A DNA stretch of 64,000 nucleotides, taken from the NCBI GenBank assembly GCA_002118135.1, contig BDIU01000104.1, positions 43,378 through 107,377 on the forward strand, read 5' to 3'. The translations under genes were made by a program, and so were the position numbers. The notes under the pieces are model-generated. The model had not been told where the DNA came from and searched no databases. It worked only from the letters and a program-made list of their open reading frames with translations. Origin of the DNA: Trebouxia sp. TZW2008. Its lineage: Eukaryota > Chlorophyta > Trebouxiophyceae > Trebouxiales > Trebouxiaceae. Of the stretch, positions 1 to 64,000 are shown piece after piece (positions within the stretch are counted from its first letter, which is position 1; each line of letters begins with the position of its first letter).

Positions 1-610
1 GAGGAACAACCATAGTGTCAAAATGCTGAAGCAGTTGCCTTGCTTGGCCAGGCCACATGGACAAAAGCTCTAAAAGGACACTGTAAGGTACCACAAGGGG
101 AGCCTCTGTGAGCACGTGAGCCCAGGATCAAAGCATGTGTCTAGCTCATGCATTTTAGGATGTGCATGATCTTATACAGCAACTTTTCCTTGTACCGACT
201 GCTTTGGTTCCCAAGAAACTTGTCCTTATACTGAATTGGCTGTACTCAGAGGTGCCACTGCAGTCAGAATTCAGTGATTGGCTACCAATTGCATTGTCAA
301 ACATTGAGATTGTCCTTGCATTGAGTGTCCTTACAAAGAGAAGTTACTGTACTGCCCAATTGCACAGCACTCCTGCAAACTTGCTGATGGTTGTGTGGGA
401 TGACAAGCCCACCTGCATCATGCATGACATGCTTGTGCTTAATGGCTGGCTGTACCCACAGACATTCCAAGGATCTCTGTCACACCAGGGCATGGGAATA
501 CCTGCACTTGGCAGACAAGTATGTATAAGGACCTCACCTCCCTCCATGCTCAATACAGAAGTTTTAGGATAGCACAGGATCTGGTTGGAGACAGTTGTTT
601 GTTGCAGTAC

Positions 611-985
611 ATGCCTAGCTGGGCCTGCTGAGCCTGTCTAGCACACGTTTAATATGAAATGAAAAGTGAATGAATGCTTGCAGGGGGCTTGCAAGTTTGG
701 GACACAAGGAAGAAGTCTTGCAGACAATCTGATCTGAAATGGGGTCTGACAGGGGCGCCGCAAGACACTGGAAAGGTGTGCCAAATACAAGCCTAAGCCC
801 ATGCATGTGTTTGCTTTTACGCAAAGCCTTCAGAGCTCAGCCTGCCTTGCAGTAGTGTCACTGCTGCACGAGCGAAACAGATATGCATGCAGCTGTGCAA
901 TGTTTGCACTCACTGGGTTGGCTAACGTGTCATTCATTTGATTCATTCATTCTAAACATGTGCTAGACAGGCTCAGCAGGCCAAG
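611..985. repeat. Foldback (MITE-like) element with ~50-bp terminal inverted repeats
   Basis: The left arm at about 613-672 and the reverse complement of the right arm at about 929-983 align almost without gaps. They share the core GGCCTGCTGAGCCTGTCTAG followed by GCACAYGTTTA and a run of GAATGAATG units. The spacer is about 255 bp and has no coding capacity. I see no clear target-site duplication. A third, single arm lies at about 27738-27790 in an intron of the TKL kinase gene. The shape suggests a non-autonomous DNA transposon, but without a TSD this remains an inference. Confidence 0.6.
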
Positions 986-1110
986 TTACGTGCTGCAGCA
1001 TTGTCTGTCTACAGCGTGTCATCCATTCTGTCAAGATGGCTAAACTGTTCACTGCAATGCAGCATGTCTAGAAAGCCACAAGTCAGCATCCAGCATTGTT
1101 GCAAGGAGCT

Positions 1111-1198
1111 CATAAGAATAATCGTCACACATTCCAGCACGTGTGCTAGGTGTGTGTGGCCCAAGTCCCGTCTTGCCAGGCAGGCTTGTTCTGAGCGC
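1111..1198 (+). repeat. Interspersed repeat family R1, copy 1
   Basis: First of three copies of a roughly 80-bp repeat centred on GTGCTAGGTGTGTGTGGCCC followed by AAGTCC and a GCCAGGC block. It sits just upstream of the first readable NUP43 exon. Copy 2 is at 1695-1770, in the next intron of the same gene. Copy 3 is at 26345-26450 in reverse orientation, in an intron of the TKL kinase gene. No open frame or RNA-gene fold is evident. Confidence 0.7.
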
Positions 1199-1256
1199 TT
1201 TCGTAAGGATATCTGATATTCAACTTGAAAGTCAGACAAAACAATGCGTGTTGCAG

Positions 1257-2272
1257 GGAGCTGCCCGTCAAATACACAGCATTGCCACCCACCAATCACA
1301 GCCAGACAAATGCGCATCAGGGAGCTCAAATGGCGCTGTAGCAGTCTGGGATCTCAGATTCAATGCAGCTCCATTGGTGGCCACCACTGGCAAGCAAAAT
1401 GCTGGAGATGTATGGCAGGTGAATGCAAGCATTCACACTGTTCCTGTGCATTCTGTCCTGTGTTGATGTGTTTTGCCAGATAGCAGTTTGTGGAATCTGT
1501 TTGGGATTAGGAGTGAAGTGCACAGGCAGTCACTCATGCATTGCAACATATGCTGCGCTTGTGCATTGCCATTGAGCTCTGGGCACATTCTGCCTTGGTA
1601 CATTGCTTAGTCATTGCCCTCACAGCACAAAGTAGGGCATGCTTGCAGCGATGGAGTACATTGAAAGGGGCGGTTCAATGGCATTACCAAAATCATCATA
1701 AGCATAATCCTTACACAATCCAGCGCACGTGCTAGGTGTGTGTGGCCCAAGTCCTGTCTCGCCAGGCCTGAGCTTTACCAAAACTATACAAACTGATGTG
1801 CCAGAATTGCGGTGTCTTCAGGTGCAATTTGATGCAGACTATGAGTCAGGCTCAGGCTCGACACCTCCTGTCCTGTTTTGCACTGATGATGGCAATCTCT
1901 GCCGAGCGGGTTGGAGCCCTCAGAGTGATATAGCCCTCAAGCAGATGCAAACCAATGATCAGCTTAGAGACAGCAAAAGCAGTGGGCATGTCTCTGTGTT
2001 GCTTACCGAGGCCAGCAGCGTCAATGGGTTTGATGTTGATGGCACTGACATTGTGGCTGTGGTGGAGCAAGAATGCATGTGCTACATCAAAAGGCGATCA
2101 CAGACCTTTTGACACTGCTTTGGATATTTTCATGTGCATGACTTCGGCATTGGTCAATGTCTGTAGACATTCTCGTGCCCAAGCTTTCATCCCATACCTT
2201 GTGAATTTGTGCATTTCCAGGCTATACAGCAGACTTGCAGATGTTCATACAGTTTTACAATTTGTCACATGA
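1257..2272 (+). CDS. NUP43: Nucleoporin NUP43-like WD40 protein (C-terminal exons; 5' end not seen)
   Basis: NUP43 is a WD40 beta-propeller subunit of the Y (NUP107-160) complex of the nuclear pore scaffold. Three exons join in phase: 1257-1418, 1822-2078 and 2221-2272 (stop TGA). Exon 1 encodes a WD blade with the strand SGAVAVWDL-like signature (here NGAVAVWDLRF). Exon 2 starts with VWQVQFD across the junction and contains LFCTDDGNLCRAGW, matching the family's CSEDGSLW strand, then SSVNGFDVDGTDIV, which matches the conserved C-terminal SVNTLDV segment. The last exon gives the short tail typical of the family. The second donor (AT/GTGCTA) is weak but is the one that keeps the frame. The N-terminal blades are absent from the window or lie unrecognised before 1257. 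The call rests on remembered NUP43 features, not a search. Confidence 0.7.
1695..1770 (+). repeat. Interspersed repeat family R1, copy 2
   Basis: This shares the TCCAGC-n-CACGTGCTAGGTGTGTGTGG core with copies at 1111-1198 and 26345-26450. It lies wholly within the intron between the two WD40 exons of the NUP43-like gene, in the same orientation as copy 1. Confidence 0.7.
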
Positions 2273-9231: not shown

Positions 9232-12200
9232 TCAGGACTGCAGCCAGGCATGGTGCAGAGCGGCTTGCAATGATATAGATTTGGCCATCAGCTCCTCAGC
9301 AAGAAGACTGCCACATTCACCAAGAGGTGGCAGCCCAGGTTCTGTCAGCAGCTGTCCCACCAACTCTAAGTCTGACGCCACTGTGTACCTGCCTCTGACC
9401 AAGGTGTTTCCTGTCCAAGCGTTGCGGTGAGGCCCATGCTTTGCAATGTTCCACTTACAATCCAACTTCACGGCTGTCTCCAGGTCAATCAAACGAAACG
9501 CAGCATCGCTGCACTTTATCACATTTGGCCATCGAATATCAGTATGTGCAAAGCCTGCGGCATGAAGATCCTTCAGGGCAAGCATTATGCATCTGATAGC
9601 TGCTTGGAGCTGTGCTAGTGATGTGATTTTAGTAAAGACAGAACCACACTGCAGCTGTTCACCAAAAGGAGATAGAATGACTGTGTATCTAGTGCATATG
9701 TGTGGACCTTCTTCAGTCTGTATGAGGTGCTGACTGTTTCTTGTTGCTCTGTACAGCTCCTGAAGCTCTGCCAGCTTGTCAATGAGCTGGGGCTGCTTTT
9801 GAATGTCCACACGCTTTATGATGTAGTCTTCCATGACGGTGATTGTCGTGCCACCAGAGAACTCCAGTTCACTACCCAATGGCACAGCATCACTCGGCAA
9901 CTGAGTTTGCTGTATGGAAAAAATGCGGTACAACAAGACGGCAATGCGCAAAAGCTCAAGTCTGCCTCTGACTGCATAGATGTTGTGGTCACCACTCAGG
10001 ACAACGCAGCTGTCTGGGGCATCACGGCGGAGCATGCAAATCCTGACATGACCTCCCGCCATTGCATAGCAGAGCAGAAACTCCACCTGTATGCAGAACA
10101 TGCCTCATGGCAAGCTGTTGCTTCCATGACAGATGAATGTCTCAGGCAGGGCAAATGCATGATCTACATCAATAGTATTTTCTTTAAATGGCGCAGTCAT
10201 GACAACAAACGTACAGCAAATGCATTGTAACGAGCTGTATGCACATAAGCCCAATAGAGCGTTCCGCGATGGTCGTGTGTAGACACACAAGAGTGTCTGC
10301 AATCATCTAAGGATGGACTGATTGGCGGCTCAGAGCTCACCGTCTCACGCTCAGCTGGATCAGACTCAACTGCAGAGCCTTCTAGATCTGTGATCCAGCT
10401 ACTAAGCATGCCTATTTTCATAAACAATGCTCAGTCTGTTACATTCCTCCCCATCTGGTTTGAGCGTCCTTGATAAAACGCTGTCTAGCGCCAGAGGGCT
10501 AAGAGAATGTTCTATTCTAAACACGACCATCCATCTTCTCATCTAGTCTATGTAATGTACAATCTGCTTTGCATAATACAGTCTGAATCTGTTCTAGTCT
10601 ATAACCGGTTCTACATTCTCTGCATATGATTTTGCTTGAGCAAAGCTTTACTGTCTCTACTCATGCAGACATGCTCATTCTCTGCAGCACAGCGCCTCTA
10701 TCTCATGCCTGGCCAGGCGTCTTAAGTGCGCTTGCTGTTGCGGCCCCATGAAACCTTTTCACGAGTGCCCTGTCTATCCTCAACAGACTGCCAATATCTG
10801 CGCAGCGACTGCTGGCAATTCTGTAAGTTCTGTTCTGGTTCCCAAGTGTTGTGTTCTGGCCCATAGTCAAGCGACTTCACAAGGTACTGTCTGGTCAAGC
10901 CCTTTCGCAGGGTTCTTGCTCTGTGGTCTATGATTCTGTCAACCTCAAACTCTTCCGCACCCTCAATGAGGAGTGGAGGTTGAGGATGAAAATCACCATC
11001 TGACTGATAAGGGCGCAGCAGAGATGCATGAAAGACATCATGAATTCTGAGCGTCTTTGGCAAATTTAGCTGAAATGCCACTGGATTGACCTCCTTAACA
11101 ATCTTGTAAGGACCAATCCATCTGGGCAGCAACTTCCTAGCACCAGGCTGTTTGAGCCTGATGTTCTTTGTGCTAAGGAGCGTAGAGTCACCTACTTTGT
11201 ACTCAACATCTCGCCGCTTCATGTTGGCATTCTACTAAGCATGCCTGTTTTCGTAAATGCTCAGTCTGTTACATGCATAGTGGTAGACTCACCTGCCCAT
11301 GGTAGCTTTGGCTCCAGCGACGCATCTTCTGCTTCAGCTCAGCCACAGCCTGATCAAGGCTGCCCTCCTGAGACTTATCTTCCCCCTTAAAGAGAATAGC
11401 GTTCCTCACAAGCACACACAGATCTGGACATTTTGCTTTCAGTGTCAATGACGCTTTGTCTTGATTCCGCTTGCGCTTCAAGTTCAGGCGCCCAGCATAC
11501 TGGTCCAGGAGTTCCATGATCTCACATACAAGCTGGTCAAATTGTCCTGCATGCCAAAATCTATGATCATGCAGGGCCACATCCCACAGCTTGACATAAC
11601 CAACAGCCAAGCACACAAGCATACAAGCTGCCTACAAAGGCAATGCAGAGCACAGCTGATGCAGTGTACAGGCATGCAGACCAAGCATACAAACCAGAAG
11701 CATACCTGCTTGCACCATGTCTGTCCCAACTGGGAATTGCTTGCACAGAACAGTGTGTATTGCCGAGCTCAATGTTGTAGCGCCAGAGTGTGAGACGGGT
11801 ACCAAGTAGGACTCCATATCTTTGTTCTGCAGCCTCTGAGACTCGAAAAAGACATCTGGCACCGGGAAGGGAGGGGTGCCTGATGTGTGCAACGCAGACT
11901 GGAACAAGCTCAGAATGTCAACAGCTGCTGGGACAGTAGTGAAAGCAGGCTCCAGTAGTCGGCGCACATAATCGCCGGTCGCATCTGCAGCACAGGGCCG
12001 ACTCGTGTGGCATGGCTATGCATAATAGCAGGTGTCATCTGGTGGCGACATTGCACGAACGTGCATACAGCAGACACATGAATCAAGAAAGAACAAGCTC
12101 TCAAAGCTGACAGTGATAGCAGGAGTTCAGGCCACAAAGCTTTCGAGCTTGATGAGAGGAAGGTCAGGAGGTGAACACTCGTTTGACCATGCAGGTGAAG

Positions 12201-14334: not shown

Positions 14335-17300
14335 ATGGTGGCAAAATCTGGTCATAGCCCCTCGCACAGGTCGTCATCTCAGATTGAACTGTCGGAGCAG
14401 CTTTCGCATTTGGAGGTCAACGAAAGGACTCCCAGCAGCTCCGACGACTTAGAAGACGACACCGGCGTCAGCACAAGCAGCAAGGATCAGCACCAGCAAG
14501 AGAGCATAACTCTGATAGACGTCATACCTGCCGAGTTCGAGCATCTCAAGCCAGGCTTCTCCTTTCGAGAGCTAGCAAGATTCTTCGGGCCTGGTCTCCT
14601 CACATGTGTCGCCTATGTGGTAAGCAAAACAGAGGCGTTGCACTGTACCAGGTTAACCGGACGATCTTGGCAAAGCTGCAAGAGCGCCTGCATGTGCAGG
14701 ATCCTGGCAATCTGGAAGCTGACTTGCAAGCTGGTGGCTCAGCCGGATATGCCTTGCTGTGGCTCTTCTTTGTGTGCACAATTATGGTAATGCTCCTTGC
14801 TTGCGTGCTTAAGTAGCTTACACACCTTACAGCCCTTGATGAACAGCTTTTGCAATATGATGACATGCTGTATTCTATAGCCATGTCTGCTCACACGCCA
14901 AGCTTGTTTGCGGCTTTATTTCACTATCACTGTTTGTAAAGTTGTTACCAGCGCACTAAGCAGTCCTGAACCGGATGCATCAAGCTGCCAAAGTAGTTGA
15001 CCTTGCCTGCAGCATGCTGGCATTTATTTCTTTTAGTTCTGAGCCTTGCCACAATTCAGTTGCAGAACCTGAGCCGAAGCTTGCTTGCAATTTCTCTCAT
15101 GCCAGCAAATGAACAATTCGCTGCTGACTTGCAGGGTTTTGCTTTCCAGTGTTTGTCTTCCCGCTTGGGTATTGCAACTGGCCTCCATCTAGCGCAGCAT
15201 TGTGGGCAGGAATATCCAAAGCTGCCACGCTACCTTATGTGGTTTTGCATGGAAATAGCCATCATTGGGGCAGACATTCAGGAAGTCATTGGAAGCGCCA
15301 TTGCCATAGCTCTGCTCTCTAACAATGTCATCCCACTGTGGGCAGGTACATTGCTGCTTGATGGTGCAAAGCCTTGTTGACACTGCAAAGCCAGCATAGT
15401 CAAACACACAGTTGCAGCATAAGGCAGGTCCATCAACAGTCAGTCCTTGGTCTGCAAATCTAGCTTGTAAGCTTGCGTACAGAAGGATATGCCTCCAATG
15501 ATCACTTCAGCTGTTGTAATGCAATTCAAAACATCTCTTGCTTGCGTTCATGCAGCTATGGTGGCAATGCTTTCTGCATTACATGCTGTACGTCAGAAGC
15601 CGTGTAGCCAAGCCCTATAGGCTGGCAAACCTGCAGCACTCTGTTTGACCTCTTGCACATTGGGATGCAGCTTCTTCTTCCTGCCTGCACTCTTGAGGGC
15701 TGTCTCTTGCAAAACTGTGAGCCCTTGCTGTGGACCAGAGGCATGTTGCTTGTGTTTGTCTCTGCCATGTTTGTACCAAAGTGTCATTGATATGCAGGAG
15801 TATTGGTAACAGCAGCTGATGCCTTTGTGTTACTGCTGGTGGAGCAGTGGGGTATACGGCAGCTGGAAGCTGTGTGTGGCTTGTTGATTGCCATTGTGTT
15901 CAATATTTTGCACGCATTTGACCAGAATGTGCTTCATTGCAGGAGTGTTGGTGACAGCAGCTGATGCCAGTGTGCTACTGTTGTCAGAGCAGTGGGGTGC
16001 TCGGCAGCTAGAAGCTATGTCTGGTCCGTCCATTGCCATCTTAGCCCATGTTTCGCATGCAATCGACCAGAATGTGATTCATTGCAGGAGTGTTGGTGAC
16101 AGCAGCTGACGCTTTTGTGCTGCTACTAGTGGAACAGTGGGGTGTACGGCAGCTGGAAGCTGTGTTTGGCCTGTTCATTGCCATCATGGCAGTCTCCTTT
16201 GGCATCATGTACAAGGATGCTGGCATCCCACACAAAGAAGTGCTGAAAGGTCTCATCTCCTATCCAATTTCATGCAGCCGTGCCTGCTGGGATACAGAGT
16301 GTTGCACAAGGATTAATCGTAAACACAAACTGCTCACACATCACTATGCTTGTAGCCTTAATTCCTGCCCAGAGTCTACAGTCTGTTGTTGCAAGTTTTT
16401 GTCATTGACACTGTATACAGCTTGCAAGTGCAATGATAGTGGTACTGGGCTGCTCGTCCTTTGTATGCACACTTCGCCAGTATGCCTTGTCTGCCAGAAA
16501 ACAATTGACCCTTTGCCTGCAGGTTTGGTGCTGCCAAGGTTGCCTAAAGCTGCGCTGCCCTTAGCTGTGGGAACTGTTGGGGCGCTGATCATGCCTCACA
16601 ACATGTACCTGCAGTCAGCTGTTGTGCAGTCAAGGTAACAGACAGCAGAGCCTACAGCCTGTAGTCATGCTCTGCTAATGCGTAACCATGAGCGCTCATG
16701 ATCTTTCATCAGTTGCATGCTTGCTGGAAAGGTGCAATGACTGTGTCAAATATCTCACGACTGTCAGCAAGCTTTGCCTAATGTGCCATGCATGATGCAT
16801 TGTTGCATATGAGAGGGCATGCATCGCCCACTACCAATATAAGCGTCTCAACAAGCTTGCACTTTGGTGCCAGCACTTCTGTGGTTGTCACAAGCGTGGC
16901 TGTATCACAAAGCTGTTGCTGCTCATGCATATAAGACAAGAGCTTGCGAACTCTCATTCTAGACGCACTTTGCAATGACTGTGTGCACTTGCATGCGCAG
17001 GTGCAACACACACATTGTGTGGTCAGCACACTTGCCTTGGTCAAAGGCCTGTCTTGTGCATACGAAGTCATTTGCTCCGGCTATATTCTCGATGTCAGTC
17101 CGTTGGCATCAGGACCCACTAGAATCTGTGGCTGATGCAGGCCAATAGCTCGCAATGAGATTGAAAAAAAGCAGAGTGCACTGCGCTATGTGCGCATTGA
17201 GACGGCCATAGCGCTGGCGTGCTCCTTCCTCATCAATCTATTCATTGTTGCAGTCTTTGCCAGGGTGAGCACTCCATATAGCATATGTGTGCCAATTTGT

Positions 17301-40843: not shown

Positions 40844-40880
<37 letters not shown>

Positions 40881-46568: not shown

Positions 46569-49500
46569 TCATCGCAGCTTTTTCTTGAGAGCGTCAACTT
46601 CACCAGCATACTTTTGCATGATCACTGCCCTTCTAGGCTTCATGGTCCTGGTCAGTGTGCCGTCATCAGGGCTGAAGGGCTCTTTCAAGAGGGCAAAAGC
46701 TGCTATGCGCTCGTGTGGCGGTCTTGTTGCAGACACTTTGTCCAGCTCTGCTTTGATGATGCTATGCTTCTCAGCATCTGACAAGACACCTGCAACACAA
46801 GTGACAGCCAGATTGAGGCAGTGGCATTGATGCTCTTCACTTGCAAAGAAGGTTGGTCCAGTCACGATGATGAGAAAAATCAATAGTGCCTGTCCTTGCC
46901 ACCAGGACAACAAAGTACATTTGATGACGTTAGAAGCCAAGATGCAACAACAAACAGAATATGGCTGTCAACAAGAGTGATAATTGCTTACCTTTTTCCT
47001 TTTCCAGTTCCTGCATAGCTTCAGGATCTGGCACCACAAGCGCTCCAAGGGACCTCCGGTCTTGACCCAACAGTACACAAAACTTGATGAGGGGGCTGCA
47101 CACCGCTGCATCTTCAATGGAGCTGGGCTCTATGTTTTCCCCGCTGCTGAGCACTATGGTGTCCTTTGCTCTGCCTGTCAAGACCATCACACCGCCCATG
47201 TTACTGCCAGGGATCCCCTCTGCATAGCACAAAACTTGAGTCAAACTCAGCCTGGCATAGAGGTTGAATAGGGGGCTTCACACTGCTGCATCTTCAAGCT
47301 GGACTCTATGGTTGCACCACTGCTGAGAGCACGATAGTGTCGTTTGCTCTGCCTGTCAAAACCATCACGCCGCGCATGTTGCTGCCAAAAATGCCCTGTA
47401 CATACATCACAAGATTGTCTCAACAGGCACAGTGCAGCATCTTCAATAGAGGTAGGCTCTATGTTTTCACTGCTGCTGAGCACTATGGAGTGCTTAGCAC
47501 GGCCTGTCCAGAACATCAGGCTCGACTCTGCACAAAGCAGAAAAGCTCTTTCACATTGCACTAAGACACAGGGATGACGGGCGCATGCAGCAGCTGTACA
47601 TTGCAAGCGGTGACAACCGTGCAATATGCATGCAGACGGGCACCTCAACACACACAAATCACGCTCTGTGCAACACATCCTCGCACCCTTGGGCAAACTG
47701 AGCACCCTGTTAGTTGCCAATAGCAAAAGCACAGTATAGAATCAGCCTACCAGGTACTAGCCAACCCCGGTCACCAGTGTCAGAGCAGCCAGGCTCAGGA
47801 CAGGCTTTCTGCGTGCTGTTAGGGTCATTGTGGTGATTTTTTGTGGGCTGAACAGCAGTATACAGTTACTCACATTACACAAATAATGCACCCTACCAGG
47901 TGCTCGCCAACCCAGATCGCCTATGTCAAACCAGCCAGGCTCAAAAAAGGCTTCATGAGGATCCAGTGTCAAAGAGTTCTCCCTGGCGCGCTATGCAGCC
48001 AGTGTAGGCATTCAGTCAATCAGTGTGCACAACTTTGCAGCAGAAAGTCTGTATAGCCTACCAGGTGCTCGCCAACCCAGGTCCCCAGTGTCAAACCAGC
48101 CAGGTTCAGGGAAAGCTTTCTGAGTACCCTGGAGGTCATTGTAGTAGCCCTTCATCACTCCCGGCCCCTTTGCCAGGATGACGCCTTGCTGCCCGTCTGG
48201 CATATCTTGATGCGTCTCAGGGTCTACAACACGGAGACTGGTCCCAGGGATTGGTCGGCCTGCAGCAGCCACCCAAAGTCAGACGACGCATTACTTCATG
48301 ATTATTGCCTCTCATGTAATCTGTGCATGAAAGTACAAGCTCACGCCTTGTTGTCCGTCTGCCACATCTTGATGTAATGCGTTCAGGGTCTACAACCGGG
48401 AGACTGGTCCCAGAAACTGTTTGGCCTGCATTTGCCAAACAAAGTCACGGCATGCATGAATGTATGCTTGTTGCCTCTCCTGTCATCTAGGTGTAATGGT
48501 ACAAGCTGACACCTGGCATGCCTTCATGGAGTTCTGGTTGACCCCAAAGGGGTGGTCTTGTGCAGCAATGCAAGCGCACTGCAATCAGAGATGTTTGCTT
48601 TGGCTTGAGCACAGATGCCGGTGATTGTCTACAAATTGAAGCTGCAGAAAGCCATTGCCAACTATAAGGCATGACATTGCAGCAATCCTCAGGATTGTGG
48701 CGATGCCTTGTTGCCAGAAGTTTCAAATGAAACAGATAGTATTTTGATTGGCTGAAAACAACAAGTGCACTTGCACAATCCAGCAATGTAGCTTCTGCAA
48801 GTGACTGACAACAGGCCAGGCAATGCTGCAAGCAGATTGAGATTGGATTGTTGATGCTTCACGATTGGAAGTTGCTAGATACAGAAATGATTGCGATCAC
48901 TTACGCCCCTGACTGCGTCTGACTGCACAGGGTTGCTTTCTGATCAATCCTTCAGCCAGCATTGATAGACAGAGGACATTGGGAACTTGCTCATGCCGCC
49001 TCTGACTGCAAAGGGTTGCTTTGTACTGACAGGTCAAAGCAGCCTTGGGACTCACCTACACTGCCTCTGACTGCCCTGGGTCCATCAAGGTAGCCTCTGC
49101 ATGCCAGCACTGGGGAAGTCTGCAGACATTACATTACGTTGTTAGTGTGCCAAACAGGGTTAGCTCATTGCAAACATTTGCTCTTGAGACATCTGCATGC
49201 ACAGCATGCTCTGCTCCCAGAACATTGTGCGGCCAGTGCAAAGTTATTGCTTGCAAGTGTGTTTTTAGTATTTGAGGTGAACAGAAGATGCCACTTGCAC
49301 ACACTATCATCCGTCGAGGTTCCTTTGGGGTGGGGCTGCATACACAGTGGGAGAAACAAATGAAACAAGGCGAGCTGGCATGCACACGTGACACACACGC
49401 ACAGGACAGCACACAGCACTAGTGATAGTGATGAACTGATGCTTGACAAAGGGTGTGAGGCAACTCAGCACACCTCAGACAGCCCCCAGCCATTCAGCAC

Positions 49501-52500
49501 TGTGAGGTCCAAGACCTCGTAAAACTCATCCAGGTGGGGCTGCAGGGAACCGCCCCCACTGACAACACATCGGCTGACCCCAAGTGCCCCTCTGATCTTG
49601 CCGTACACCAGTTTTTTAGCTAGCCTGCATGAAGTAGCATATCAGTGGCACCTCTAATTTGCTATAGACCAGCTTTGAGGTAAGTATGCGTGAACAGACA
49701 CGCATAATTAGTGGCACGCCTGATCTGGCCGTCCACCAGTTTCGCGGCAGGGTTGTATGAACTTACATGGATGGCGTTACAGGTTTCAACCAAAGCCTAT
49801 GTTCCAGTCAGTCTTCAGTCCACAATCCACTAGTCAGCCAGCCAGCCACTCAATGAACCAAGCAAGCAACCAAGTATGCCAGGTACAATTAGGAGGGCGA
49901 TAAGAAGACAACAATGATGAGGGCAGCCAGAAGGGCCTCAGGGATGGGCCTGGCTGGCGTACTTGAAGTTTATCCCAATATTGACTCATGTCAGTCAGTG
50001 AGCAAGCCAGCCAGTCAAGCCATGTCAATCATTCAATTGAGTATGACATTTACCTGTGGAAGGGTGCCAAGAAGGCAACAGTGACGAGGGCTGCCAGAAG
50101 CGCTGTCCAGGGGCGGGCCTGGGTGGCCCACTTGAGGTCCACACCATTCTTCACCCTCCTGGCCCGGATGAAGGCCCCACTAAGGGCAAAGAAGAATGCC
50201 GCTATGGTGCGCTTCACCTTGGAGCCGCGCTTGATGGCGGCCTTGACCTGCAGCAAAGACGACACGATGAGTCATCCTGCAGCAATGAAAGCAATAATGA
50301 CTATTACACTAGTATGTCAGACGTTCTAGCTCACCTTTGTTTGCAGCTTGCCAATGACCAGAAATACACGCATACAGCACTATGTTATGGCAACAGAAGC
50401 AGGCATATACACACGCAGCATTGTGATAGGAGCATTGCATAGCTTTGTTTGCAGTGTGTCAAAGCACAGAGGCACGCACACAAAGTTCTGCATCAGAACC
50501 CATGCCCAACTTGGTGTGCAGGGTGTCAACAACCAAAGGCAGGCACACAAAGTGCTAAGGGCAAAAACGCTGCAAACCTTTGTTTGTAGGGTGTCAATGA
50601 CCAGAGGCACGCACACAAAGTACTGCGGTGGGAACTTGGTCAAGTCCTCCCTGAACCGGCGGATGTTGGTGTACACTTGCTTCATTCCACATGAGTAGAT
50701 GAAGTAGCCGCAGGAGCGCTCATAGATGTGCCATGGAGGCAACAGACTCAGAGAGCTATCCCCAGCCGCAGGTTGCAGAAAGTGCCTCAGGTTGTTCAGC
50801 TGGTACAGCAGGTTGCTGTGGGTCAGCATCACACCCTGCACCCAGCTGATTCAAGTTTGCAACAGCATGAGAAATCTCAAGAGCTTGCTGGCAAGGCCGT
50901 GGCATCGTTGGATGCGCTCATAGATGTGCCATGGAGGCAGCATACTTAGGGAGGTACCCCCAACAGCTGGTTGCAGAAAGTGCCTCAGGTTGTTTAGTGG
51001 GTACAGCAGGTTGCTGTGGGTCAGCATCACACCCTGCATGAGTGTGACACAAAGCATGCTCGCAGTGAGAGCAGTCAACATCATGATCTACATGATTGCT
51101 AGTGAGGTGCATGACGCTGTTGGACACCAGGTAGAGTGATCTTGAAAACAGCTCTTACTGGAGACTTGCAGCAACAGCTTTGCTGGCTCGGCTGACACAG
51201 CACCAAGTTGTATTAAAAGCAGAGGGACAACTTGGATGACCTGACATGACCATAAAGCTGCAGAGATAGGTCAAACTACCAAACATGAACCAATTGAGCA
51301 GCATGTGTCCATCAGCTAGTGATGAACGTGTGGTCAGCATCAGCCAAAGACTCTGCGCTCAATCAGCTTGGGTTTGCCACTCGCAGCAGCAAAGGTACAA
51401 TCAGTTTTGCTTGACAATGTGAATGCCAATCGTGGAGTGCTTGAAAAATTGCCCACGAGGCTTGTTTGACATTGGCAGGTGACCTTGTCGCTGAGTGCAA
51501 GTCTACTTTGGACTGCCGCGAGGCAGCACTGATGTCTTGCCTTTAGGCTGGTATGCTACACAGCAGTCATGGGTTTGCCAGGAGAATATGCACACCTTAG
51601 GGTTGCCTGTTGTGCCAGAAGTGTACACAAGGGTGGCTAGATCTGAGCCTGAGATCTTCACTGGGTTGGCTTCGAAGCCTGTCAGGTTTTGCTTGCCCTT
51701 CTCTGTCACTTCAGTGTATGACAGGACTGGACAGGCCAAAGCCTCCTTGTCTTTCTGGTTGGGCTCACCCCACAGGACTGCCACAAACCGCAGGGACTCG
51801 CTCAATGGCTTCTGCAAGCCCACAAAAGTGTGTCAAAGCAATGTTGTCGTGCCAGAGGTGTGCAAGAGAGTGGCCAAGTCTGGGCCTGGGATCTTGACAG
51901 GGTTGGCTTGAAAGCCTGTCAGGTTTTGCTTGCCCTTCTCTGCGACCTCGGTGTACGATAGCACTGGACAGGCAAAAGCCTTCTTGTCTTTCTGGTTGGG
52001 CTCACCCCACAGGACTGCCACAAATCGCAGGGACTCGCTCAACGGCTTCTGCAAGCCCACAAAAGTGTGTCAAAGCAATGTTGTCGTGCCAGAGGTGTGC
52101 AAGAGAGTGGCCAAGTCTGGGCCTGGGATCTTGACAGGGTTGGCTTCAAAGCCTGTCAGGTTTTGCTTGCCCTTCTCTGCAACCTCGGTATATGATGGCA
52201 CTGGACAGGCAAAAGCCTTCTTGTCTTTCTGGCTGGATTCGCCCCAAAGCACTGCCACAAAGCGCAAAGACTCGCTCAACGGCTTCCGCATACTCAAGAA
52301 CAAAAGCTGTCAAGGCGACAGTACTGGTCTCGCATAGCACACAGACTCAACCAAGGGCTTCTGCATGCAATACAAGATTCATCAAGGAAACACTATGGAT
52401 CTCGTTTGTGAGGCTTGCAAAATGCTCCCAAAGATGCGTTTTGCAGGCTCAGAATGCACGCATGTAGGGGACAGAGCACATGCACACATGAATGTCTCAG

Positions 52501-54891
52501 ATTGCTATCAGGAAGCACAAATCTTTGCAGGTCGACTGCCCTTAGGAATACAAGCTTGGCGAACCCTTTGCATCAGGCTGAGCATGGCCAGATATGAAAC
52601 TGGCAGGCCATGCAGAAGCTGCAACTGCACTGATCAAGCAAGCAGTTCATGATTTGAGTTTGCAGGCAGAGCTTTTGCAGTGCGGAATCTGCTAGTCTGC
52701 TCTGAGTAGTATTGAGAATGCAAACATGCGCAAGAAGGCTGTTCCCCAGCTGTGCGCTGTACTTGCTCTCGGGTTTTGCATCTATAAGAGGCTGGCGTGA
52801 GCTGTATACTCTGGCACTGCTGACATACATGTCTGCAGTTGCGCTGTGAGAGGATAGGCACTAAGACTGGGTAGTCTCAGCTTTGTACCTGAGGTTGACT
52901 ACCATTGCTTGCTAGTGCACTGCCATTGCTGCCATTACCATTGGCACTACCAGCTCCATTGCTGCCATTTTGCAAAGCAGCATCAATCTGCTGAAGCTTC
53001 CTGATGTGTGGCAGCAGCTTGCGTAGAGTGTCCACGTCCTGAACAATCAGCCCTGCAGCATTTTGAATTAGCCTGAGATCAACGAACACTGTTGCCAACT
53101 GCTTGCGCTGTGCTGAGATCTGCTGTGCTGTGCAGGGCTGTACTGCGTTAATTTCCAGTAGCATCTACTCTCTACGTGCCACAAGGCGTTGGCTGTGCTC
53201 CCCTGCTGTCTTGTGCTGCTGCAGTGATGTCATGCAAGCTTTGCTTTCCTGATGCTTGTGCTTGATCTGTAACCTTGGGACAGGCACAAATTCTTGGAGC
53301 AAGTACTGAGAGCCATGCTCAAGCTCAAGGGATGCAGCAATGCTGAAGGGACCCACAGATGCCTGGTTTCAGCAAGTAACTTTTGGTGAACAAAGCAGTA
53401 TTGCATCTGTGATTGAGACATTCAGGCTTGTGAAGCAGCTATCACCACAGCAATCACACCATGATCACAGCCACAATGGTCACAGACATTGAGATTCATG
53501 ATATGACGTCCATGTGGGATCAAGGCATGCACATCTAGTCTTGACAGCTTGCAGAATGAAACTTTACTTTGGGTGGTCAGACAAACATGTTGACTGACCC
53601 CTGACGTTTACTGCATGACGCCCCTCTTGAGCCCCTGAAATAGTGTCAAGCTCAATGAAAGGGGTGTGTGACGATGTAATGAGAAAATGCTGACGTGTGT
53701 CAGAAACATGGCTGACCTGAGCTGTCAGATTGGCGAATGATGTATGCCAGCTCTTCAGCAGGGCTGCTTGCACCTCTGACTGCATCAGCTGCCCCACACA
53801 GCATGACAGCCTGGTCAGCCACAAGCCAACGAGAGCTGTTCTCTGAAAACAACGACACCTGCAAGGCGATTCAGTGCCTCAATTGCAATGGCACAGTACA
53901 GCTTTAGACAGGAGCGTTTGGAGGCAGTTTGTTGCTTCTGTATGCACCTAGCTGGGTTATAGAAACTCTTCAGATCATGTGTAAACGTGAGTGATAATGA
54001 GGAATCAGCAAAGAAGCACAACACACGTTTCACCACTCACTTGAAAAGCATGATCTTGTGCAGAAGAAGCAAACGGCTGTGTGGCAGAACATTGCATTGG
54101 GCGTGATTGTCAAGGGTGTTGGTCTTGCATGTCATGCATGTCTGCATGTGTTGTGCTTACCTTGTCGCCTTGAGCCAAGCCAAGTGACCTGAGGCCTGAT
54201 GCAAAGTTCTGGATAGACGCATCAAGATCCCTGAGCAGCATCAACGCTTCAGCTACATTCCATGAGGGCACTCAAGATACAATCCCGCAAAGTGCTCAGG
54301 CAGTGCAAGCATGTCAGTGCAAATTCACCTGAAAGACAGCTTTGTTGCTGGATTCTGGTGGGGATCTTCTGCAGCTATTTGTTGCCCATACTTGTGTGCC
54401 AGATCGGCCCACCTGCAATGTCACGACAATTCAAACTAGCCTGGCTTTGCAGCTGTTGCTGCAGCAAGGCTGAATGACTGGAGATAAACGCGCAGAATTA
54501 CGTACATGTCCGGCAAACTTCCGTATCTACCCTGCTGAACATCCTGGGAGGCCGGCAGTCCCTGCTGTACTTCAGAAGGAGAGGCTGTCTGCGACTGCAA
54601 GGCAAAGCTTTACATCAGCTTCAGCTTCAAGTGTGCGCGGCGATGCTGCTTGCGGCCCACGAACCTCACCTGGCTGATCGCAGATACATATACCCTGCAG
54701 CGTGAGCGGCGAGACGATAGCTGCGTGGCGGATAATCTGGTCTCGGAAAAAGCCTGGCAGCGATCCTTGCCCAATACAGGCGCGGTTGCCGCGGGTCGCA
54801 GGCGCACTGGACCGCGCCTCGCTAGGTGCAGATGCGGACATCCAGTCCTATGCTGCGCGTTAATCATCATGCTGCACCTTTGTTGCTGCAA
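46569..54891 (-). CDS. AAE15: Plastid long-chain acyl-[acyl-carrier-protein] synthetase, AAE15/16-type (766 aa)
   Basis: It activates free fatty acids with ATP and loads them on ACP in plastids. Fourteen exons close exactly: 54670-54891, 54506-54594, 54329-54412, 54161-54230, 53717-53858, 52889-53052, 51596-51811, 50578-50835, 50054-50247, 49474-49624, 49056-49119, 48062-48259, 46992-47219 and 46569-46789. The first ~75 residues are basic, Ser-rich and end VYVSA, a good chloroplast transit peptide. The ATP/AMP signature YTSGTTGNPKGVMLTH spans exons 7-8. LPPWHIYERSCGYFI, SGGGSLQPHLDEFY, NGWGLSETSP, GWFDTGDLGW and GRAKDTIVLSSGENIEP follow in the family order. A Gly/Ser/Asn-rich insert in exon 6 (GSNGAGSANGNG) is unusual. 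The order and spacing match plant AAE15/AAE16 better than ER-type LACS. The donor of exon 8 (AAAG/GTTTGC) is weak. Most introns carry partial exon copies. Confidence 0.95.
47270..47535 (-). repeat. Acceptor-side copies of acyl-ACP synthetase exon 13
   Basis: Two decayed copies of the start of exon 13 (SNMxGVMVLTGRAKDTIVLS, then the ENIEP segment) lie at about 47270-47400 and 47430-47525, upstream of the real exon (46992-47219) in transcription order. Confidence 0.85.
47750..48061 (-). repeat. Donor-side copies of acyl-ACP synthetase exon 12
   Basis: Two copies of the exon end (PEPGWFDTGDLGWRAP plus donor) lie at about 47752-47815 and 47893-47970, beyond the real end at 48062. The copied donor reads CTGGTAG in each. 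Confidence 0.88.
48340..48440 (-). repeat. Acceptor-side copy of acyl-ACP synthetase exon 12
   Basis: It is a decayed copy of the exon start (GTSLPVVDPE region) with intron tail, upstream of the real acceptor at 48259. Confidence 0.75.
48900..49055 (-). repeat. Donor-side copies of acyl-ACP synthetase exon 11
   Basis: Two short copies of the exon end (ARAVRGSV region: plus-strand GCCTCTGACTGCNNNGGG) lie at about 48903-48935 and 48992-49020, beyond the real donor at 49056. Confidence 0.7.
49640..49990 (-). repeat. Acceptor-side copies of exon 10 and a donor-side copy of exon 9 (acyl-ACP synthetase)
   Basis: At about 49645-49690 and 49710-49750 lie two copies of the exon 10 start (KLVYGKIRGAL region). 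At about 49868-49985 lies a copy of the exon 9 end (ALLAALVTVAFL region). Both kinds therefore share one intron, in the order expected if each junction was duplicated in place. Confidence 0.78.
50335..50577 (-). repeat. Donor-side copies of acyl-ACP synthetase exon 8
   Basis: Three short copies of the exon end (CVPLVIDTLQTK region) lie at about 50500-50545, 50440-50490 and 50333-50370. The most distant one carries a strong donor AAAG/GTGAGC, while the real exon's donor is weak (GTTTGC). Confidence 0.78.
50900..51035 (-). repeat. Acceptor-side copy of acyl-ACP synthetase exon 8
   Basis: It is a near-identical copy of the exon start (GVMLTHSNLLYxLNNLRHFL, then LPPWHIYER) with an acceptor, upstream of the real exon at 50835. 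Confidence 0.88.
51812..52310 (-). repeat. Two acceptor-side copies of acyl-ACP synthetase exon 7 (237-bp ladder)
   Basis: The exon start recurs twice beyond the real one. GTGCCAGARGTGTRCAAG (plus strand) is at 51612, 51849 and 52086, periods 237 and 237 bp. The copies stop within the TSGTT part of the ATP-binding signature, so only the real exon has the complete motif and the donor. Confidence 0.92.
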
Positions 54892-55812: not shown

Positions 55813-58800
55813 TCACGGCAGCCTTCCCAGTTGCTAGTTTTGCGTGCCTCCCAGTAGCCGCCCTTGTACTTGAAAGCTGATTGCTCTCCAGGCACTGCAT
55901 TGGGTACCTTGCTGAACCACCTTGGCTCCAATGGCACTCCTTCATCAGCGGCCTTGCGAGCTGCCCTTTGCTTCACCTCCAGCCTTTGCTTCTCTGCATT
56001 TGCCTGCAGCAACAATGCCGTGCTGAAAAGACAAGCATGATAGTATATATGTCCACGAGCAAAGTAGAGCTGTTCCACAGAACACGACAAAAGACGTTCA
56101 ACTGGACACCACAATGCAGTCCTAAGCTCCATGCAAGCATATGTCATGCATGTTCTGACACAGCCACGAGCAGGCAAGGTGCAGACAGCAGTATACCCAG
56201 CATGCAGTATTATGTACAGTACAAGACATCTACAGTGACAGCTGCAAGGGAAGGCTTGACACATAGCAGATTGTCCTGGTCATACGTGACCTCCTCGAGG
56301 GCATCCTGATTTGGTCTTGGTCTCCAGTCTGTGAGTGCAAGCTGCTTTGTGCAATACACTGTACAGGTAGGTTTATACAGGCAGCAGCGGGACTAAAGCT
56401 TAACAGGCAGAAAACTGACCTGATCATACATGCCCTCCTCCAAGGCATGTTGATCTGGTCTCAGTCTACAATCTGTAGGAGCCAGCTTCTTCTCCAAACC
56501 AGGTGGTGTGATCTCATTCAACCACAGGGCAAAGTTGGTCAGGTTGTACCTGTCACAGGCAGGCATATTTGGAAGTTGATAATCTGTATGACTTCATGCT
56601 GAGTGCTTGTGATGTAAGCTGTACTTGCATGCTGTGCTGTAGAAGTAGCTTGCAGCATGAAGAGGGCCATGCCTGTGCAATTAAAATGTTGTGGCTTCTT
56701 GATGAATATTGCCTGCATGGGGATGGAGTTGACATCTCGTTTAACAGAGATGCTAAAGCAAGGGCAGTTTCAACCAATGTTGATTGAAAAACAAGTGGTT
56801 GTTTACCTCCCGTAGACCTTTATATATTTTATTGGATACCAGGAGTGTTTTGGTTTGGGCTGAAAATTATATTCTTTTTATTTGTTTTGATTTGGGTACG
56901 TGCAGCTTTTCCTGCATGCAGGCGTGCTCTCTTGCCTTCACTGACATCACTGTACTGTCCAGGCTTATGGAATCCTGCAAGAAGTTGACATCACTACACA
57001 CTGATAAGTACTGGCAGCTTAACAAGCGCACAAGCTCGCTGTACTAGCACAAGCCCTGTGTGTGCAGGAGCGCTTGATACAAGTCAACAATGTGCATCTC
57101 AGCTGAAGCTGCAGACTGCCTGGGTCTTCAGCAAGAAAGGAGGGTAAACATCACACAAGTGAGGGGCGTGATGAAGTGAAAGACGGCAAGGCCTTCCGCT
57201 GGCCTAAATCAGCAAGGAAACGGGGCCAAAGGCAAGTGCCTGACCCATGCCACCATAAGGCAGGGGCATACCTGCTGTTGTCAGCCGGCCTTGGGTGGAC
57301 TTCCCAAATCCTCTCCTTCTGACCTCCAGGTTGTTCAACCTCCAGGGCTGTGTCCCACTTGCCAGTCATAGTATGAGGCAGCTTCTGTCCATCCTTCTCA
57401 AACACGCCAACAATCTGCACAGCAAGCACAAAACCCCATGGACATTCATGCCCACAATATGCACACTCAGCCACAGGTCCGAAGAAGCCTGAATGTAGAT
57501 AGGCCAGCAAGCCTTGCCAATCATGCTGGCATCCCTACATTCTGCACATCAAACACACCAAGCCATTGATGAAAAAAAGCCTGAATGCGCACAGACTGGC
57601 AAGCCTTGGGACACTGCCCATGCTTTCCAAACATGCCTACAATCTGTGCACCAAAAATCAGTAAGCTTTGGCAAAACGAAGCCTAAACACGCCCAACCTG
57701 GGTCTCAATTCTGAGACTGCCTGTTTGCACTTGTGACCAGCATGCACACTACGCGTGCATGGCTTGCCGATGAGGATATGTGGTGCGACCAGCTGTTGCA
57801 CTAGACAGTTCAGAGATGCCCAGTTGAAGAAAATGAGGCAATGCGAGACTCAATCAATTATGGATAGCAGTCACCTGGTGTTGATCTTTGGATGAGAGCC
57901 TGCCAGACTCCTTGAACTTGATCTTAGCCACCAGGCTGGACTGCAGGTTGTTGATGCGCATTATGCCCGTGTGCTCAATGTAGATCTTGCCCATGATCAG
58001 GTTGTTGATTTGCGATGTCACCTGCACACAAGCGCCCTGTTTGAGCACAACAGCAGAAGCAGCTTTGGGCAGTAGGAGCGTATAGCAATCAGTGCTGGAA
58101 GCACAGACAGGGTATGTTGTTGCCTTGCACCAAGCCTTGCTGCAGCTGAGGGACAAGGAGATGGCCGCTTAGCTGACCTGCAGAGCGTTTTGTCAATACA
58201 TGGAGCATTGAAGCAAACCTCCCATGTTGACAGTGTGTAGGACAGACTAAGGGGAAATAGCTCACAAACAGCATCATTGGAGGATCTCATGCCTGTCCAA
58301 GCCTGAGAAATCAGCTTTCAGAAAGACAAATGTTAGACAACAGGCTGCCGGTTACAGCGCAGGTCTTGCTGGTGCTGCATAACTCTGCCCACTACATTGC
58401 AGTCAACACAAGCCTTTCAGCAACGAATATTGACAGTGTTGCGCTCTCACCTTCTGCCAGGTGTACTCATCGCCGTCATCAAACTTGAGCCTGATGAGCC
58501 CAACTGGGATGAGCTCAATGGAGCGGCCCCAGAACTTGCTGCGCACCTCTGCATCCCCAGAGAAGGTCCAGTGCTCCCCTTCACCGTGTGCTGCAATGAC
58601 TGTAGGATGGTGCACCACCTGAAAAGGCAAAAACTTCGTTGTTGCAAGCATTTTCTTTCCTCAACTGCCTCAGGATCCTAAAACTATGAAATGTACTGAT
58701 ATCACAAGAACAGCTCTCCTTGTTTCAAGCTGCAATGAGTAGGAGATGGTGCACCACTCGGCGACATAAATTGGCTCAGGCCCACAAAGATTAGGTTTGG

Positions 58801-61800: not shown

Positions 61801-63419
61801 CATCTTGGCAGGGCGTGTGAAGTTTGCCAGTCTAACAAGGCCTGCAAATGCGCTAGCAAACTGCTAGCTCAGTCGCAGGCATCTGTAGATTGGTAAACCC
61901 CAGATACTCTGATCGGAACAACAGTCATACAGACAGCCTGTATGATCATGACAGGGCTGCAATGCAGGCAGTCTCCTGAATCACCTGTGGGGCCTCAAAA
62001 GGAAATCCTTGCACCGTCAGATCACTTTTCACACCAAAAGCACCATGAAATTGTGTACTTCAGATGATCATAGTAAAGATTTGTCGGCATGGCCTACCAT
62101 AATTCTGTGGAGCACCAGATGTGCTGGTCTCTTCTGCCATCAGCGGTGTGCTGGACAACCGGTTGAGGTTGGTGTTGCAGTCAAAGAATATGTCCTCAGT
62201 GCCATCACCATTGCTGACAATTGAGCCTGAATCATCCTCATCAGGCTCATCGTCTGAGTGAGACTGCATAGACTCCTTGTCTGTTTCCCTGTTCTGCAGC
62301 CGCTGCTCCACCACCATGTTTGTCTCAAGTTGCCGCTTCTCATTCTACACAGACAAGATGCTGCGTCAGATCTTTAGTGCTGCAGTGTATTTATCTCAAG
62401 CTGCCGACTCTTGTTCTGCATTTACGTTTCACACAGACAAGGTGCCGAGTCTGGTCTTTAGTGATGCAATTGTGTGACTCTAGCTGCCGCTTCTGCTTCT
62501 ACACACATGAGGTGCCTGGTTCAAGCCTTCTTCGATGCAATGTGTTTGGCTGCAAACACATTGCCTCAAGCTGCCGCTCCTCATTCTACAAAAACAAGAT
62601 GCTAAGTTGCAATGCAATATGTTGGTCTGGCTGCAAACTTCCCAGAATGTCTCTGCCAAAGCTAGCTGGCTTTGCAGCAGTCACATGAAGGTTACAGCTG
62701 TCAGAAAGCCAGCACACAGGCTGTACATGCAAAGTTACGTAGCAAGCCTTAGTAACAAGGTCTTCTGAGGCAGTGGCCCTGATGCTGGAGAACATGGTAC
62801 CAGCAAACACACAGCAGAGTGTCTTCGCTGACGCCTTGTCCTCAAGCAGCAGGGCTGGTGACCACCTCAGACAACACAAGTCCATGGCGTCACAGCCCAG
62901 TTGGTAGGATTTGCCAGCCACAGCATTAGCATGTAGGCTCCTTTTGACATGCAATACAGCTCCAAAAGCTCCGCCCGACTGTTCATGCAAACTTGGCTGA
63001 GCAGCAGTTAGCTGACATTTGCAGCATGATCAGAAGCAAGACAGACATGATATAATGTGGTGTGACACAGCAAGAAGGACACAGTGATCACGAAAGCTGG
63101 ATGATGGTGCTTGCTATATATGCTTTCTGCGCATGCCTCCTGTCCAGGCGTCGGACTGCCATTGCAATTTTGCAGCAACAGGCGTTCTGTGGAATGTGCT
63201 GACGGCAGGAATCAAAGCATCACCTCTAGCTTGTTGACATGGTCAATCAGGACGCGCCGCTTGTCAGCTTCTGCTGTCATGTTGCTGTTGTAGGCCTGGT
63301 GGCGCTCCAACAGCACCTGCTCAACATAAGCTTGCACCTCTGGGCCAGCACCCTTGGCTGCTAGCTGCTGCCTCACTTCAGCCAACAGCTGTTGCAGCTT
63401 TGGGTCAGCAGAGGAGCTC
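55797..63419 (-). CDS. Oxysterol-binding protein-related protein (ORP), 5' part outside the window
   Basis: ORPs move sterols or PI4P between membranes at contact sites. Eleven exons join in phase (691 codons): 63224-63419, 62098-62344, 61313-61552, 60947-61172, 60413-60614, 59810-59980, 58451-58618, 57875-58021, 57272-57414, 56420-56549 and 55797-56003. A coiled coil ([12 protein letters not shown] to [17 protein letters not shown]) is followed by an acidic segment with EDIFFDC, two Gln/Gly/Tyr-rich disordered exons, then the lipid-binding domain: [60 protein letters not shown], and FWGRSIEL. It ends with [16 protein letters not shown] and a final DIFGQ. The fingerprint EQVSHHPP is EKVVHHPT here, with both His kept. 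A PH domain is expected upstream, beyond 64000 or unrecognised in 63420-64000. Confidence 0.9.
56270..56335 (-). repeat. Donor-side copy of an ORP exon
   Basis: It is a copy of the end of exon 56420-56549 ([17 protein letters not shown] region, here decayed), offset about 135 bp downstream. Confidence 0.75.
57480..57665 (-). repeat. Acceptor-side copies of an ORP exon
   Basis: Two weak copies of the start of exon 57272-57414 (IVGVFEKDG region with CTGCACAGATTG-like acceptor) lie at about 57525-57550 and 57620-57655. Confidence 0.55.
60020..60240. repeat. Intronic tandem repeat in the ORP gene
   Basis: About three units of 70-80 bp share a CAGATACARNNYCACCTGCA and AACATGCTGTGAAGCATTGG pattern (plus strand), starting near 60047, 60117 and 60196. 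They lie in the intron between the [12 protein letters not shown] exon and the [12 protein letters not shown] exon. They do not resemble the neighbouring exons. Confidence 0.6.
62345..62610 (-). repeat. Acceptor-side copies of an ORP exon
   Basis: Three copies of the first ~30 bp of exon 62098-62344 (NEKRQLET region; plus-strand CTCAAGCTGCCGCTYCTCAT) with TCTACA intron ends lie at about 62391, 62475 and 62564. Confidence 0.75.
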
Positions 63420-63484
63420 CTGCAAGGTATTCAGCAGAGTCTAATGAGAGTAAAGACATGCAAAGGAGTGAGCACATTATGGGC

Positions 63485-63535
63485 AGACAATGTGCAGCTT
63501 TTGGTCAGCAGAGGAGCTCCTGCACGGCAGTGAGC
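63485..63535 (-). repeat. Acceptor-side copy of the first readable ORP exon
   Basis: GCAGCTTTTGGTCAGCAGAG plus GAGCTCCTGCA repeats the exon start at 63395-63425, with its acceptor, about 105 bp upstream in transcription order. Confidence 0.8.
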
Positions 63536-63937
63536 AAGTCTGATATAACTGTGTATGCAGGAAGGAGTGAGCAATCTTGACCAAACTATGACACAGCATT
63601 TGCCAAGATCGGAACCAAAGCTGAGGACAGTTTGGAAATGTGAGCAGGGCAATATCTGATAAATGTCAATGCAGCTCTGGTGCATGCAAAAATCTGTGGG
63701 CTTCACATGCTGCGGTGGGCTGTGCCAAAGGTGGGCAAAGAAATGAGCGTTGTGCACGGAGTCACTGTCGAGAAAGAGTTGTTCCCATGCCGAGGAGGCA
63801 GCAGTCAACAGCTGCAAGGGCTCCTCTGAGCTGCACTGACTCTTTCTTGACAGAGACATCCGCTTCTACCAAAGGGCAGCTGCAGAAGCCCTGTTCAGCA
63901 CTTGACTTTATCAGTGTCTCAGGTACTGAAGGACGGA

Positions 63938-64000
63938 AACGGCAGTAAACATAAGGCATACGGCAGTAAACATAAGGCATACGGCAGTAAACATAAGGCA
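63938..64000 (-). repeat. 21-bp minisatellite at the right window edge
   Basis: Three units of 21 bp (CAGTAAACATAAGGCATACGG) end the window and may continue beyond it. The period is a multiple of three. On the minus strand one frame is open and encodes a repeated MPYVYCR heptapeptide. Confidence 0.85.

Follow-up and report, generated by a model that had tools for sequence, protein, structure and literature searches.

Partial copies of exon edges recur on the intron side of splice junctions in a Trebouxia genome

Why should the introns of a green alga, probably a lichen partner, hold piece after piece of the exons beside them? The question is raised by a stretch of the genome of Trebouxia sp. 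TZW2008, positions 43378-107377 of contig BDIU01000104.1 (64,000 nucleotides (nt), hereafter the window), in an assembly of 68.5 megabases and 527 contigs. A preliminary description of this window had claimed that its introns are built from tandem duplications bridging splice junctions. Here we report that copies of exon edges, complete with look-alike splice sites, are present in many introns and that the phenomenon extends beyond the window. The repeats are local and direct, they lie on a predictable side of the junction, they evolve neutrally and they exceed random placement; how they arise is a matter of weighing several explanations.

Sample and gene models

The window was extended with 20 other stretches of the same genome, 19 of about 10 kilobases (kb) at fixed positions on different contigs and one of 50 kb, giving 298,163 bases or about 0.4% of the genome; one further contig was left out as too short. 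Repeats were detected by self-BLAST, with pairs taken when less than 3 kb apart in the window and within 1.5 kb in the extended sample. Exon models of three window genes, encoding an NRAMP transporter, an acyl-ACP synthetase and a TKL kinase, come from spliced alignment of relatives' proteins to the DNA, and their junctions agree across alternative relatives' proteins. A fourth protein-based gene, a second NRAMP on the contig we call C16, was aligned to protein P0007 in two pieces with the middle missing. Outside these four, all exons are predictions of a small gene finder, seeded with the three protein-modelled genes and retrained on other stretches. Of the splice sites in the protein models, the version adopted finds 29 of 31 donors and 30 of 31 acceptors; those genes were in its seed but excluded from its final training set, and when each was left out of the seed in turn, recovery was 27 of 31 and 30 of 31. 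Domains were identified by Pfam scans over whole frames, with stop codons read as X. The results concern DNA and proteins for a single genome.

Copies lie on the intron side of the junction

In a self-comparison of the window, as the preliminary description had suggested, 53 repeat pairs less than 3 kb apart are direct and 2 are inverted. The extended sample holds 290 direct and 5 inverted pairs, which form 145 arrays, about five per 10 kb, with a density of 1 to about 10 per 10 kb across stretches. The nearest-copy period per array has a median of 146 base pairs (bp), quartiles of 112-183 and a 95th percentile of 259; the short end of this range is set by detection, the fall-off near 250 bp is not. 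Periods show no bias towards multiples of three (48, 50 and 47 arrays for remainders 0, 1 and 2).

Within the three protein-based window genes, arrays occur at 16 of 62 splice sites and none is confined to an intron. Copies of acceptors lie upstream and copies of donors downstream in all 16, and the junction falls inside the matched copy in 15, the exception being a TKL donor (23281) at which the match stops 11 nt short. The three repeat pairs that include no exon copy are secondary copies within those same arrays. The genes and arrays are as follows.

14335-19282, plus strand: NRAMP metal transporter gene of 9 exons, from spliced alignment to the 86% identical Trebouxia protein P0001
15770-16185, plus: array at acceptor 16088 of NRAMP exon 4; two upstream decoys (intron end, acceptor and exon start), with acceptors at 15798 and 15943
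21299-29548, minus: GAF-PAS-TKL kinase gene of 11 exons (from spliced alignment to P0241, P0242 and P0243; closest listed proteins 69% and, from Trebouxia, 70% identical)
22169-22642, minus: TKL array at donor 22561, decoys downstream
22730-23044, minus: TKL array at acceptor 22790, two upstream decoys; young, 92% over the unit
23155-23342, minus: end of TKL exon 8 copied downstream of donor 23281, the match ending 11 nt before the junction
23341-23634, minus: TKL array at acceptor 23456, decoy upstream
23923-24679, minus: TKL array at donor 24576, several downstream decoys
24708-25277, minus: TKL array at acceptor 24812, two upstream decoys
26115-26624, minus: TKL array at donor 26477, downstream decoy; intron half without clear homology
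26999-27240, minus: TKL array at donor 27157, decoy downstream
46572-54843, minus: acyl-ACP synthetase-like AMP-binding gene with 14 exons when aligned to P0122, start codon provisional (P0121 also used for spliced alignment; closest listed proteins 82% and, from Trebouxia, 81% identical)
47084-47521, minus: synthetase array at acceptor 47219, upstream decoys
47743-48145, minus: synthetase array at donor 48062, downstream decoys at 47897 and about 47751
48181-48514, minus: synthetase array at acceptor 48259, decoy upstream
49832-50138, minus: synthetase array at donor 50054, decoy downstream
50436-50626, minus: synthetase array at donor 50578, downstream decoys, both without GT
50716-51038, minus: synthetase array at acceptor 50835, in which 120 nt of exon are 90% identical and the intron half can scarcely be aligned
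51608-52290, minus: synthetase array at acceptor 51811, three copies spanning 204 of 216 exon nt

In the second NRAMP gene, four or five arrays are at junctions and two are intron-only (260936-261138 and 261694-261983). Donors 253699, 254623 and 262580 and acceptor 260407 each have an array, in every case on the side expected. Next to one exon, a ladder about 1.3 kb long (258222-259547), made up of many exon copies and among the longest found, is of uncertain assignment as to which copy is the real exon.

Across the 298 kb, copies occur at 79 of 674 splice sites predicted by the gene finder (11.7%), comprising 47 acceptors and 32 donors. Where a pair involves a single junction, the side rule is kept in 128 of 130 cases: of 81 acceptor pairs, 79 have the copy upstream, and all 49 donor pairs have it downstream. 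Another 14 pairs are contained within an exon and 5 extend to both edges, so that 128 of all 149 exon-copy pairs have a single edge with its copy on the intron side.

Most of what had been claimed for the window holds up against these counts. Partial copies of the neighbouring exon edge do sit in introns at many junctions, as the 16 of 62 sites attest, and the 'at least 20 junctions' of the preliminary description become 25 (22 by the gene finder and three, 23281, 24812 and 51811, in the protein models only). The wide spread of copy ages is borne out; copy-to-copy identity has a median of about 80%. The claim that the side rule applies without exception is true of the protein-based genes (16 of 16) and slightly overstated for the larger set (128 of 130). 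Copies spaced at the claimed 124-360 bp are present, but that range was too narrow: within the window, nearest copies are spaced at anything from 68 to 429 bp.

Further window arrays were placed by the gene finder.

33590-34837, minus: multi-copy array at acceptor 33748 of an alpha/beta hydrolase gene (gene-finder exon, no protein-based model)
35522-35732, minus: array at donor 35657, hydrolase gene
35742-36491, minus: array at acceptor 35851, hydrolase gene
38862-39357, minus: array at donor 39277 of a HAD/phosphoglycolate phosphatase-like gene
39996-40397, minus: array at acceptor 40124
56251-56491, minus: array at donor 56420
62320-62603, minus: weak copy, 25 nt of exon, at acceptor 62344
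63393-63544, minus: weak copy, 27 nt of exon, at acceptor 63419

One intron among those listed has an unusual start: that following TKL exon 8 (donor 23281, minus strand) begins with GC, not GT, in all three protein alignments.

Junction copies exceed random placement

Arrays with exactly one exonic copy number 23 in the window, against 10.2 +/- 2.6 expected from 400 random shifts. The preliminary description had made its case depend on a like excess elsewhere in the genome, and there is one: the other 20 stretches hold 64 such arrays, against 39.6 +/- 4.7 expected from as many shifts. For the whole sample the figures are 87 and 49.9 +/- 5.2, and the highest of the 400 shifts gave 67.

As selection should remove most duplications that are confined to an exon or take in several junctions, the fair comparison is between junction-spanning and intron-only arrays. 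The latter make up 18 of the 145 arrays in the sample, and the junction share is accordingly 87 of 105, against 0.39 expected from random segments of the collapsed sequence. Because a constrained exon might keep its copies visible for longer, this comparison needs to be seen beside a simulation of detection, in which duplications were mutated with the real exon constrained and all else free and were then run through the same BLAST search. Simulated detection rates were 0.72 for junction arrays and 0.62 for intron-only ones, a slight lift only, which raises the expected junction share in uncollapsed sequence from 0.35 to 0.386. Set against that expectation, the observed share among arrays with periods of 70-260 bp is 82 of 100 (82 junction and 18 intron-only, leaving out 13 mixed, 13 intergenic and 8 both-exonic arrays), or 7.2-fold in odds.

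Age can also be matched directly, by dating near-complete tandem units from their neutral part. At a neutral identity of at least 0.80, 21 arrays are junction-spanning and 4 intron-only (expected share 0.35, P=7e-7), and for thresholds of 0.75, 0.80, 0.85 and 0.90 the ratios are 38:8, 21:4, 8:1 and 2:1. Since the excess persists at matched neutral age (21:4), slower decay of exons is not the whole reason for it. Copies of junction edges are several times commoner than pure-intron copies of the same size, and their excess over random placement is real.

These tests bear most directly on the simplest alternative, in which there is no exon bias and it is enough that tandem duplication is random, that damage to coding sequence is filtered out and that recognisable similarity fades more slowly where one copy is under selection. 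That account yields the side rule and the neutral copies by itself, and it is in keeping with the near parity among arrays whose best identity is below 76% (7 junction, 7 intron-only, 4 intergenic). However, simulated detection brings it only to a junction share of 0.386, against the 0.82 observed, and even when all 22 arrays classed as mixed or both-exonic are counted as intron-only, the share remains 87 of 127, about 0.69. We regard it as distinctly improbable.

Copies decay neutrally and carry decoy splice sites

Between the real exon and its nearest decoy, 12.6, 10.9 and 21.1% of first, second and third codon positions differ (257/2042, 224/2050 and 433/2048). This is the pattern of an unconstrained copy combined with silent change in the real exon, and the copies therefore evolve neutrally, without selection at the protein level. 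The same pattern, in which differences track the codon positions of the real exon, is not one that assembly error would produce. Together with a median identity of about 80% and the recurrence of the phenomenon in 64 further arrays outside the window, it makes an assembly artefact the least credible of the explanations considered, one to which we attach almost no weight.

The decoy splice sites are strong by site score, as had been proposed. Decoy acceptors have a median of 6.8, against 7.0 for the real ones, and 20 of 47 score at least as high as the real site; decoy donors are weaker, with a median of 4.3 against 6.1, and 9 of 32 score at least as high. As first suggested, such sites may confront the spliceosome with a choice. 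The AG is kept in 68 of 74 decoy acceptor records and the GT in 34 of 45 decoy donor records. Retention of AG is somewhat above what a divergence of about 11% predicts; we considered selection as the cause and dropped that reading because the matches are anchored on the junction.

Could the copies nonetheless serve as alternative or regulatory exons under selection? The frequent retention of splice signals would suit such a role, as would the 55 of 79 copies that are free of stops in the exon frame. Against it, first and second codon positions differ as freely as expected without selection, the copies are truncated exons, and the orthologous proteins align to the protein-based models without decoy-derived residues. 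If the nearest decoy were spliced instead, the result would be a frameshift, a stop or both in 76 of 79 cases, so that decoys must mostly be ignored. A function for the copies as a class is therefore highly unlikely in our view.

Introns with a decoy have a median length of 693 bp (71 introns), against 311 bp for those without (266 introns). Copies that can be detected account for 18.5% of intron bases, a lower bound given that others have decayed, and to call introns 'built from' junction duplications is thus too strong, although decoy-bearing introns are roughly doubled in length. The doubling points to a plausible everyday route by which introns lengthen without a transposon. In addition, many acceptor decoys approach the strength of the real site, which must still win, and this amounts to a natural experiment in which rules of exon definition can be tested. 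Those who predict genes or map short reads in Trebouxia should allow for introns that contain pieces of exons.

Origin of the copies

The explanation we favour, with about even confidence, is frequent short local duplication that is biased towards exon-containing segments, filtered by selection and followed by neutral decay of the copies. Our preference for an exon bias comes from the persistence of the excess when arrays are dated by their neutral part. Under this explanation, short segments, mostly of about 80-220 bp, would be duplicated often, very locally and in direct orientation, some copies adjoining the original and others set apart by unrelated sequence, and segments containing exon would be duplicated several times more often than purely intronic ones. 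The source may be repair at nicks or staggered breaks; tandem duplications, both natural and induced by nicks, have reportedly been studied in rice and Arabidopsis. Events that alter the mRNA would mostly be purged, and the survivors would be mainly segments across exactly one splice junction, because in these the full exon keeps its own site, innermost, while the surplus copy ends up in the intron. There it would be free to decay while carrying its decoy site, which presumably loses to the real site that defines the shorter exon.

A bolder version would make exon DNA a hotspot of local duplication through some process tied to exons, such as chromatin, transcription, splicing or RNA-linked repair, with ladders as a major route of intron growth and about one in eight splice sites facing a recognisable near-copy. 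We hold this version tentatively, as something short of probable. If the exon bias is mutational, it would imply a so far unrecognised tie between exons and DNA repair.

Several points weigh against the exon-biased explanation. The age-matched excess is built on only 25 arrays and, at a neutral identity of at least 0.90, consists of 2 in 3 and is not significant; the dating uses BLAST's own alignments and the best pair per array, which favours arrays of many copies. A gene finder seeded as ours was might label copies as exons. A misfit also lies in the intron halves, tested in the 61 of 79 nearest pairs whose period does not exceed 260 bp and whose intron part measures 36 nt or more. If a whole unit is duplicated, its exon and intron parts are equally old, and many pairs disagree: in 21 of 61, the 50 nt beyond the splice consensus cannot be aligned while the exon half has a median identity of 85%, against 2.1 such pairs in simulation, and exon and intron divergence correlate with a rho of 0.13, against 0.70 simulated.

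The misfit is confined to part of the material. An intron part can still be recognised in 53 of 77 pairs, and in these the divergence ratio of 1.94 matches expectation. A looser local test finds a significant match in 5 of 17 long-enough pairs of the class without intron homology, compared with 4 of 70 for unrelated introns as a control. Local alignment of the 61 nearest pairs reaches the end of the unit in 28 and leaves an unmatched spacer in 33; the displaced spacer is found nearby in 7 of 26 testable cases. Among longer pairs with intron homology, the match is confined to the half near the junction in 14 of 25, and in the class without it homology is lost within about 6-12 nt. We also considered copies that end exactly at the splice site and rejected them: intron-side extents in the 61 pairs are distributed fairly evenly between 0 and about 90 bp and do not accumulate at zero.

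An alternative that takes these intron halves as its starting point is that duplication is random and that the exon halves of old copies are refreshed by gene conversion from the constrained exon, while intron-only arrays fade. It would explain why exon halves look younger than intron halves. Differences along exon halves are indeed clustered, both in all 64 pairs (P<=0.003) and in those lacking intron homology (P<=0.006), and acceptor 51811 is patchy: 33 of 33 nt of adjacent intron agree between the real copy and its nearest decoy, while identity in the exon part is 0.87. Yet significance is reached neither by a test of the longest identical run in exon halves (P<=0.197) nor by clustering among pairs that have intron homology (P<=0.087); exon-half divergence has no trend with distance from the junction; and the excess stays in near-complete units dated by their neutral part (21 against 4). 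Conversion as the whole account is thus unlikely, though a more serious contender than unbiased duplication. For the misfit itself, copies made with a spacer and exon halves refreshed by conversion are both candidate sources, and both may act.

What becomes, then, of junction-spanning tandem duplication as the origin of these arrays, as first proposed? The side rule speaks for it; the pairs that lack a matching intron half, ten times as many as simulated, and the 18 intron-only arrays show that in its plain form it covers only part of what is seen.

Relation to known duplications

The nearest published case is the RdRp gene of potato, in which an intron was gained through tandem duplication across an intron-exon boundary (PMC4974935). 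There, as in 15 of our 16 protein-based arrays, the duplicated unit holds one junction; the potato gene, however, is a single case that yielded a new spliced intron, whereas here 79 of 674 predicted sites are involved, on both sides of exons, and alignments of orthologous proteins, from DNA and proteins only, give no sign of new introns or exons made from the copies. The Rogers-type model of tandem genomic duplication, in which duplication of an exonic AGGT segment creates a new intron (PMC3443670), likewise entails a short direct duplication that takes in exon sequence and splice signals, but in Trebouxia it is existing junctions that are duplicated and existing introns that are lengthened.

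Small tandem duplications arise in mammalian cells by fill-in at staggered breaks, in work with engineered breaks and overhangs of about 43-54 bp (PMC8355091). Like the arrays described here, these are short, direct and local; they are independent of homology, as the Trebouxia duplications may also be. No preference for exons or splice junctions is described in the part of that paper covered. Direct orientation and short size, as in small tandem duplication by staggered-break repair, are both found in our arrays. New introns in Daphnia also contain internal direct repeats and have grown by repeated local duplication ascribed to staggered breaks (PMC4202315), but the repeats shared with exons there are 4-12 bp long and the introns newly gained, whereas ours are exon-derived copies of tens to more than 100 bp in genes with orthologues.

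Two differences set the copies apart from another class of arrangement. Mutually exclusive exons consist of complete copies with both splice sites and are under protein-level selection; those in Trebouxia are truncated, with only 5 of 149 pairs reaching both edges, and their codon-position differences betray no such selection. Tandem exon duplication is well known to place extra exon copies next to the original. Introners are recognised by a single element sequence common to introns of different genes; the Trebouxia copies resemble the exon beside them.

In the literature searched, which leaves most subscription journals outside its coverage and was available partly in excerpt, we found no description of pervasive junction-spanning duplication or of genome-wide exon-edge ladders. 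Junction-spanning duplication itself is already known from the one potato gene; its recurrence at junction after junction, judged by that literature, appears to be new.

Other features of the window

A dispersed repeat of about 180 bp (174-354) has at least about 40 more copies in the genome, mostly 79-86% identical, among the matches listed. On the minus strand, 10722-11231 is an open frame of 169 amino acids that by eye resembles the end of a Ty3/gypsy-type retrotransposon polyprotein where the chromodomain lies. At 31480-32544 on the plus strand, one long uninterrupted frame presumably encodes an SnRK2-like protein kinase, a name likewise given by eye. Finally, the contig ends in three exact copies of a 21 bp unit (63939-64000), possibly the start of a satellite or subtelomeric array.

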